Assembly: GCA_012728215.1 (NCBI GenBank)
Contig: JAAYFO010000068.1
Coordinates: 1-38,668, forward strand
Source of the DNA: Spirochaetales bacterium
Lineage (GTDB): Bacteria; Spirochaetota; Spirochaetia; Sphaerochaetales; Sphaerochaetaceae
Length of the DNA: 38,668 bases
Direction: 5' to 3'
How positions within the stretch are numbered: the stretch's first letter is position 1; each line of letters begins with the position of its first letter. The notes beneath the pieces are model-generated. The model saw nothing but the letters and a program-made list of their open reading frames with translations, had not been told where the DNA came from and ran no database searches. Made by a program: the position numbers and the translations under genes. Shown in pieces: positions 21,473-26,322 of this stretch.

Positions 21473-21724
21473 ATGAGTATGAGAACTATTGATTATAAGC
21501 CGCACGGCATCTGTGCTTTTGAGATATTGGTTGAAATCGATGACGATGACAAGGTTCAGTCAGTCACATTTGTTGGTGGCTGCGATGGGAATCATAAGGG
21601 ATTGGCTGCGCTGTGCAAGGGAATGAAGGCTGACGAAGTGATCAGCCGTCTCGAAGGAGTCACTTGCGGTTACAAGAACACTTCCTGCCCTGCCCAGCTC
21701 GCCAAGGCACTCAGAACGAGGTAG
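21473..21724 (+). CDS. TSCPD-domain protein
   Basis: The 83-residue product matches the small TSCPD domain family (the type named from T-S-C-P-D, here N-T-S-C-P-A-Q-L-A-K-A-L near the C-terminus). It has five cysteines including G-I-C-A-F, G-G-C-D-G-N-H-K-G, L-C-K and C-G-Y. The same domain is found at the end of class II ribonucleotide reductases; the stand-alone form is of unknown function and may bind metal. The next gene starts five bases after its stop, so they are probably one unit. Confidence 0.8.
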   Translation: MSMRTIDYKPHGICAFEILVEIDDDDKVQSVTFVGGCDGNHKGLAALCKGMKADEVISRLEGVTCGYKNTSCPAQLAKALRTR

Positions 21725-22891: not shown

Positions 22892-22921
22892 TTGACATGA
22901 TGGTAAATGATTTTGTATAGT
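22892..22921 (+). promoter_or_regulatory. strong promoter of the zinc-ribbon gene
   Basis: TTGACA (22892-22897), an 18-base spacer and TATAGT (22916-22921) predict transcription from about 22928, a leader of roughly 17 bases. Confidence 0.8.
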
Positions 22922-22944
22922 CACTTTGACAAGGAGTTGATGAC

Positions 22945-23115
22945 ATGTCTAAAGCACATAGAGGTTTCGGTATAAGAGAGCAGGCGAACAAGGGAAGAGG
23001 CACATGCCCCGTCTGCAGCCGCACAGGAATCAAGGTTCTTTATGAGAACAAGATTGATGATCAGACTGCAAAAGTCTGCAAGCAGTGCAATGCAAAACTC
23101 AAGAACGCCAAATAA
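22945..23115 (+). CDS. small Cys4 zinc-ribbon protein, unknown function
   Basis: A 56-residue basic protein, shorter than the usual gene-calling limit. It has C-P-V-C at residues 21-24 and C-K-Q-C at residues 45-48, a four-cysteine metal site, and a Lys-rich end (K-L-K-N-A-K). The N-terminus is basic with H-R-G-F-G-I-R-E. ATG 22945 is eight bases from AAGGAG. A near-consensus promoter and a T-rich terminator bracket it, so it is a stand-alone, probably abundant transcript. I recall similar short proteins in spirochaetes; a nucleic-acid or ribosome-binding role is inferred from charge and zinc site only. Confidence 0.85.
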   Translation: MSKAHRGFGIREQANKGRGTCPVCSRTGIKVLYENKIDDQTAKVCKQCNAKLKNAK

Positions 23116-23140
23116 GCAAGTACCGAGATTGGTTTGAATG

Positions 23141-23168
23141 AAAAGGGCTGCATGTCAGTCCTTTTTTT
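23141..23168 (+). terminator. terminator of the zinc-ribbon gene
   Basis: A 10-bp stem (23141-23150 with 23156-23165, one G-T wobble) with a CATGT loop runs into a continuous T tract to 23168. It lies 25 bases after the stop. Confidence 0.85.
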
Positions 23169-26079: not shown

Positions 26080-26121
26080 ATGTTGTAACATCATACCCTG
26101 CGATTGAATAAGGAGAAGATT

Positions 26122-26322
26122 TTGAGCATCCCACTTGATAAATTGATTGATAAGGACTGCAATGTCTATGAAATGACCTGTGTGGCCATAAAGGAAGCCA
26201 CTCTTCTTTCGAATAAGCTGAGTGAAGAAGAGCAGAAGAGCGGCATTAAAATCGTTTCCGAGGCTTTGGAAAAGGTTTTGAATGACGAAGTGGAGTATTC
26301 CATCAACGATGAGGAAAAATGA
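26122..26322 (+). CDS. rpoZ: RNA polymerase omega subunit
   Basis: The omega subunit helps beta-prime fold into the RNA polymerase. The 66-residue product begins S-I-P-L-D-K-L-I-D and has the N-V-Y-E-M-T-C-V-A-I-K-E-A core helix typical of omega; a Lys-rich region then an acidic end follow. The frame can start at TTG 26104, but AAGGAG at 26110-26115 is six bases from TTG 26122, which is chosen. It overlaps the miaA start by four bases (ATGA). The homologue assignment is by length, motif and neighbourhood. Confidence 0.85.
   Translation: MSIPLDKLIDKDCNVYEMTCVAIKEATLLSNKLSEEEQKSGIKIVSEALEKVLNDEVEYSINDEEK

Follow-up and report, generated by a model that had tools for sequence, protein, structure and literature searches.

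A Small Basic Four-Cysteine Protein of Spirochaetia as a Candidate Ribosomal Protein

The Gene and Its Signals

The locus holds a gene for a 56-residue protein with four cysteines, which stands alone beside murC and has its own promoter. The window, that is, the whole stretch of 38,668 nucleotides that was analysed, comes from a Spirochaetales bacterium. The original prediction described near-consensus promoter boxes, a good ribosome-binding site, a C-P-V-C and C-K-Q-C pair, and a strong terminator, and all of these are present (Table 1). The basic charge that it emphasized was also borne out, as the protein has a pI of 9.9 and contains 13 lysine and arginine residues versus 4 aspartate and glutamate residues.

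Table 1. Coordinates of the four-cysteine gene and its signals in the window.
Feature	Position	Strand	Basis
-35 hexamer TTGACA	22892-22897	+	read from sequence
-10 hexamer TATAGT, spacer of 18 nt from -35	22916-22921	+	sequence; whole-window shuffle control
Ribosome-binding site AAGGAG, 8 nt before the ATG at 22945	22931-22936	+	sequence
Gene for the 56-residue Cys4 protein, stop codon (23113-23115) included	22945-23115	+	homologues; dN far below dS
CPVC, first presumed metal-ligand pair, residues 21-24	23005-23016	+	sequence; 45-row alignment A2
CKQC, second presumed metal-ligand pair, residues 45-48	23077-23088	+	sequence; both Cys replaced in C- members
Intrinsic terminator, 11-pair hairpin (23140-23166) and T run to 23168	23140-23168	+	fold of -12.4 kcal/mol

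The promoter agrees with the consensus at 11 of 12 bases (TTGACA-18-TATAGT). Two sites of this quality are found in the 38.7-kb window, the gene promoter and one at position 401, whereas 12 dinucleotide shuffles of the window yielded 0 or 1 such site each (nine zeros and three ones). The match is therefore above chance. The other site reads TTGACA-18-TATATT and lies at 401-430 on the + strand. The signals are also recognizable in related genomes when they are inspected by eye. TTGAC is kept in all 11 upstream regions compared (the window and 10 chosen relatives), and TATA(G/T)T follows 17-18 nt downstream of the -35 box in eight of them, with a weaker -10 box in the other three. In the 10 relatives themselves, the -35 box persists, the -10 box is kept in seven, and the spacer length drifts. 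Hairpins with T runs that resemble the terminator of the window were seen 3' of the gene in several relatives, again by eye.

The open reading frame at 22945-23115 is a real gene under purifying selection. Over the first 53 codons, dN is 0.11 versus a dS of 1.36 in the comparison with the nearest relative (L031), and 0.13 versus 0.78 in the comparison with another (L032); dS was saturated for two of the five relatives compared. Codon usage fails to discriminate the gene from the background. Its score of 0.004 exceeds that of 28 of the 31 window genes and falls at the low end of the range for 23 frames of a ribosomal-protein contig, a set that includes SecY-, RpoA-, and EF-Tu-like frames, and the same score or a better one is reached by 29 of 186 background segments of the same length.

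Two other short frames of the window deserve a record. At 21473-21724, a stand-alone 83-aa protein with a TSCPD domain (PF12637, E 3.1e-25) is encoded directly 5' of a 369-aa frame that has no Pfam match at E <= 0.01. A 72-aa frame at 26104-26322, which overlaps the start of an IPP-transferase (miaA-like) gene, resembles RNA polymerase omega by eye and has no Pfam match at E <= 0.01.

Distribution of the Family

The original prediction recommended a search of spirochaete small-protein sets for the same Cys4 spacing and named a lack of homologues in relatives as one sign against it. Such a lack was not observed, and pattern and profile scans uncovered a widespread family rather than an oddity of the window. 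With a profile built from a 45-row alignment (A2) and membership in the class counted at E <= 1e-6, the family was found in 189 of the 248 sampled genomes of the class Spirochaetia. The corresponding figures were 173 of 228 for the high-quality genomes and 79 of 99 for genera. Among the matches listed, each positive genome has one match at this threshold, except for one genome (G468) with two. The remaining 59 of the 248 genomes, four of them from the window's own family, have no match at E <= 1e-6, and the gene is thus dispensable over long times. No match to the profile was obtained in any listed genome of group f5, which is probably Borreliaceae.

Across the phylum, a search with the single sequence found matches in 82 of 296 genomes; 81 of these belong to the class, and the other is a doubtful case with two in-frame stops. 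A phylum search at E <= 0.05 gave 98 of 296, and the 17 genomes outside the class gave weak matches (E 1.4e-4 to 0.05). When 84,980 species were scanned with a sequence pattern, 29 loci were returned, of which 21 were spirochaete-titled, seven belonged to Bacillota, and one came from a Poribacteria-labelled bin. This last member (L050) carries a 12-residue insert after position 13. The distribution in Bacillota is patchy. In the order of Paenibacillus sp. CF384 (L053), 44 of 119 genomes match at E <= 0.001, and 13 of these have two or three matches, while in the Bacillota phylum to which a Clostridiales bin belongs, 23 of 398 sampled genomes match. A phage or plasmid origin was rejected on the phage and plasmid records covered: no tblastn match was found in 50,697 phage records, and the one match in 72,556 plasmid records lies on a 2.7-Mb Paenibacillus replicon.

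Genomic Context

The flanks of the gene were examined in 86 gene-carrying genomes of the class. Because these were the 30 best single-sequence matches and others chosen for the spread of groups, the shares given here are not population estimates. The gene rplQ, encoding bL17, lies directly 5' on the same strand in 33 of the 86 genomes. This arrangement was found in all 23 examined genomes of group f3, all three of f4, all six of f8, and the single f12 genome. Of the 17 rplQ-linked loci measured, 16 have no more than 33 nt between the end of rplQ and the gene or show an overlap, and the gap in the other locus (L028) is 288 nt. Each of the four groups has loci with rpoA 5' of rplQ where the flank reaches far enough. 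In a 34th genome, G468, one copy follows rplQ on a 3.1-kb contig and a second copy is located elsewhere (L131, L132); the copy on the short contig may be contamination.

The window gene belongs to a different arrangement. The start of murC lies within 400 bases in 12 of the 86 genomes, including that of the window. In the window's own family, the gene stands before murC in 10 of the 17 genomes examined and after rplQ in none of them. The original description of the gene as stand-alone is consequently accurate for the window and does not extend across the family, since elsewhere the gene follows rplQ in a ribosomal-protein gene cluster. Neither rplQ nor a nearby murC turned up in 40 of the 86 genomes, some of whose flanks are short. 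No rplQ linkage was seen at the inspected Bacillota loci, judged with an rplQ query and by viewing the nearest frames. At two of 18 Bacillota loci (L177 and L181), the gene lies within about 50 bases of a frame resembling a DEAD-box RNA helicase by eye, or overlaps its called start. In the window's own genome, the contig ends at rplQ. By eye, the next large frame after rplQ resembles RNase Y in the genomes G227 and G281 and in the Borrelia-like G237.

Conserved Residues and Cysteine-Poor Forms

Seven residues are invariant in the 45 rows of A2 (M1, K3, R6, G7, C21, K30, and K46), and seven others are nearly so (R18, G19, P22, C24, Y33, C45, and C48). Besides the form with four cysteines (C+), there is a cysteine-poor form (C-), which retains the first of the four cysteines. 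The other three positions carry different residues (CPxT ... SKxG or SKxA), with threonine at the second, while the remaining sequence is kept. The C- form was found in seven of the 86 examined class genomes, from groups f3, f13, f16, and f74; one of these carries the probable orthologue of Treponema pallidum (L060). C+ and C- copies were seen together in none of the 86 genomes.

The C- form may have arisen once or several times. With the ligand columns included, six C- rows group in a single clade, which has support of 100/91 and recurs in 98% of the bootstrap trees. With the three ligand columns masked and the Paenibacillaceae rows taken out, the C- state needs four changes (bootstrap 3-5). 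No bootstrap tree of the masked alignment shows a single C- change, yet one C- clade is not rejected (p-AU 0.347).

Predicted Fold and Database Similarity

An AlphaFold2 model from a 40-row alignment has a mean pLDDT of 87.9 and a pTM of 0.62. It places a knuckle, a beta-hairpin (29-37/40-45), and a helix (46-55) that begins inside the second CxxC. The best structural match is a FYVE domain, 2yqm, with a Z of 3.6 and an rmsd of 6.0 over 53 residues, followed by a thymidine-kinase zinc lobe (Z 3.2, rmsd 1.9 over 36 residues) and GATA (Z 2.6, rmsd 2.3 over 37 residues). The order of the predicted elements is treble-clef-like rather than that of a classic zinc ribbon, although with such weak matches this label of the fold is tentative. 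The original description survives as far as a basic Cys4 protein is concerned, and with respect to the predicted fold a treble-clef-like domain would take the place of the zinc ribbon. A Foldseek search of the PDB with the model gave nothing at E <= 0.001.

The window protein does not reach the cut-off of any model in Pfam or NCBIfam. Whereas the curated cut-offs were checked for the window protein, the E values of the weak matches are those of A2 members. In NCBIfam, nine of the 45 members match TIGR03655 (best E 9.3e-5), NF047912, and TIGR00270, and two match NF033497 (best E 5e-5). In Pfam, 18 families match between one and three members each, with a best E of 4.4e-4. These weak matches scatter over unrelated zinc fingers and are taken to reflect the common CxxC spacing. 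PHROGs gave weak matches (best E 0.017). Among PDB sequences, there was no match for the single protein or the C- profile, and the A1 profile gave E >= 0.16.

The Treponema pallidum Protein and Its Abundance

At one locus (L060), the gene order is RpoA, RplQ, the family gene, a 274-aa frame, and DnaK. The 274-aa frame is presumably GrpE by gene order, grpE being TP0215 in T. pallidum. The L060 protein agrees with the window protein at 55% over 56 residues and has a computed mass of 7.0 kDa. In T. pallidum, L17 and DnaK are TP0213 and TP0216, and TP0214 is listed as uncharacterized, with a mass of 7 kDa (PMC5015957). The sequence match and the position between L17 and DnaK suggest that L060 is T. 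pallidum and that its family gene is TP0214.

TP0214 heads Table 4 of the same paper, which lists the 50 most abundant T. pallidum proteins, with an NSAF of 19.6, a measure that is noisy for tiny proteins and can overstate them and that here comes from one species and one method (PMC5015957). The values in that table for ribosomal proteins are 13.1 for L34, 12.5 for S18, 9.4 for L17, and 8.9 for L28. In that study, NSAF correlated poorly with transcript level (r = 0.26), and TP0214 had an unremarkable transcript ratio of 1.6 (PMC5015957). A later paper again cites TP0214 as having the highest level in that study (PMC9200625). The high abundance expected in the original prediction is thus matched in the published table for the probable orthologue. 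The same record qualifies the claim that the function was not yet described. No function is named for the family in the literature searched, outside whose reach lay most subscription journals and supplements, and the T. pallidum protein itself had already been recorded as abundant and uncharacterized. The accessible parts of two further papers (PMC2386257, PMC11668736) contain nothing on the family.

Relation to Known Ribosomal Proteins

Complementary loss was looked for in four ribosomal proteins, bL28, bL31, bS21, and bL36. Every one of the 25 genomes tested has bL28, and every one of 28 has bL31, bS21, and bL36, with genomes both with and without the gene in each set, so a stand-in for any of these four proteins was rejected. 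The bL31 matches in the 28 genomes span either about 190 nt or about 235 nt. The long span occurs in the tested genomes of f5, f6, f7, f11, and f59 that lack the gene but also in those of f2, f13, and f16 that carry it, and the short span is also found in six genomes without the gene. By eye, the C- form resembles bL28. This likeness gained no support, since PF00830 is absent from the Pfam matches of all 45 A2 members (E <= 0.01). More generally, L28, L31, L33, L36, S14, and S18 are absent both among the family-model matches of the window protein (E <= 1) and among those of the 45 A2 members (E <= 0.01).

The nearest precedent is the ribosome of Borrelia burgdorferi, which contains two small proteins that were formerly unannotated, bS22 and bL38 (PMC10618245). 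No bL38 match was obtained in the PDB by profile or among the 50 Foldseek matches listed. In seven 20-kb stretches of a 914,768-bp Borrelia-like chromosome, bb0162 was sought through five published residue positions; no frame matched all five, and one matched four. As the probable Borreliaceae (f5) have no family match in the listed genomes, the Borrelia ribosome structure cannot test the family protein. The literature searched yielded neither a ribosome structure nor a ribosome proteome from a species that carries the gene.

Interpretation and Alternatives

The family is probably a lineage-specific ribosomal protein of Spirochaetia or a near-stoichiometric ribosome-bound protein. This reading explains at once the place in the gene cluster, the abundance, a small and basic build with four cysteines, and the existence of C- forms. 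The single-copy spread and the conserved promoter of the gene also point toward it. On the other side stand the class genomes without a match, the genomes with neither rplQ nor murC nearby, the patchy occurrence in Bacillota, the undiscriminating codon usage, and the caveats on NSAF. The ribosome- or nucleic-acid-related role that had been proposed from the window is supported by the place after rplQ and the cysteine-poor variants, while binding to zinc, RNA, or the ribosome would be a further step. In such a protein, the four cysteines would hold one zinc ion that staples a small treble-clef-like domain, and rRNA would be contacted by the basic C-terminal helix and by the N-terminal tail, which is basic and conserved (M-x-K-x-x-R-G). 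Where the gene follows rplQ in the rpoA-rplQ cluster, the two would be co-expressed, and the window gene beside murC may keep its high output by means of its own near-consensus promoter. Some lineages carry the C- form, as is the case with known zinc-binding ribosomal proteins.

Other explanations differ in where the protein would act. It could be a factor for ribosome assembly, hibernation, or another accessory function of translation, which is abundant and binds rRNA or immature subunits and is not stoichiometric in the mature 70S ribosome. The patchiness in Bacillota, the second copies in some genomes, the DEAD-box-like neighbours at two Bacillota loci, and the absence from 59 of the class genomes would all suit such a factor. 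It is nonetheless considered unlikely, because the published abundance of TP0214 lies above that of structural ribosomal proteins (PMC5015957) and the gene follows rplQ in every examined genome of f3, f4, f8, and f12. The position of rpoA two genes 5' in loci of these same groups, where the flank extends to it, could instead suggest a small zinc protein associated with RNA polymerase, in the manner of the omega, epsilon, or delta subunits. However, the immediate neighbour rplQ encodes a protein of the ribosome, and the linkage thus suits a ribosomal protein no less well. C- forms, moreover, are known for ribosomal proteins (PMC8000910). An association with RNA polymerase is therefore very unlikely.

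Slightly less credible again is a general nucleic-acid-binding or regulatory zinc finger unrelated to ribosomes, for example one that binds the nucleoid or mRNA. The basic charge and the treble-clef-like model with its weak FYVE, thymidine-kinase, and GATA matches would agree with this, as would the lack of an rplQ neighbour in examined genomes outside f3, f4, f8, f12, and one f9 contig. Against it speak the rplQ linkage in four groups and the cysteine-poor variants, which keep the remaining sequence. Finally, the shortness of the frame and the lack of a database family might raise the thought of a chance ORF or misread sequence. This has virtually no chance of being right and is refuted by the matches across the class, a dN far below dS, the conserved promoter, and peptide evidence for the probable orthologue TP0214 (PMC5015957).

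The ribosomal reading can be put in a fuller form. An undescribed ribosomal protein would occur in most Spirochaetia, its zinc (C+) and zinc-free (C-) versions would replace each other between lineages, and it would have been lost in the Borrelia-like group and be patchy in Bacillota. We give this complete picture about an even chance. If it is true, most spirochaete ribosomes, including that of T. pallidum, hold an extra unmodelled protein, which would bear on the reading of spirochaete ribosome structures and on ribosome-directed antibiotics. The top-ranked “uncharacterized” protein of the T. pallidum proteome would gain a role. The family would also be another case of the C+/C- pattern in ribosomal proteins, and short ribosomal proteins would again be seen to escape annotation, as did bS22 and bL38 in Borrelia.

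Comparison with Known Systems

Treble-clef fingers such as FYVE, GATA, and the thymidine-kinase zinc lobe share the predicted arrangement of knuckle, hairpin, and helix with the family protein but differ in that the structural scores are weak and there is no common sequence family at the curated cut-off. The likeness to bL38 and bS22 of B. burgdorferi is of another kind, as these are small extra spirochaete ribosomal proteins missed by annotation (PMC10618245). However, no sequence relation to them was detected, and the probable Borrelia group is without a family match in the listed genomes.

The zinc-binding ribosomal proteins provide another parallel. Among them, L28, L36, S14, and S18 exist in both C+ and C- versions. 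Zinc-free counterparts are also described for L31 and L33 (PMC8000910). Like the family protein, such proteins are small and basic, carry two CxxC pairs, and have counterparts free of these cysteines. In contrast, no homology to them was detected, and C+ and C- copies of the family never occurred in the same genome among the 86. Also among the closest known proteins is TP0214 (UniProt R9UVZ6, “Uncharacterized protein”), a probable orthologue by sequence and position. TP0214 is a C- form that follows rplQ, in contrast to the C+ protein of the window, whose gene has its own promoter.
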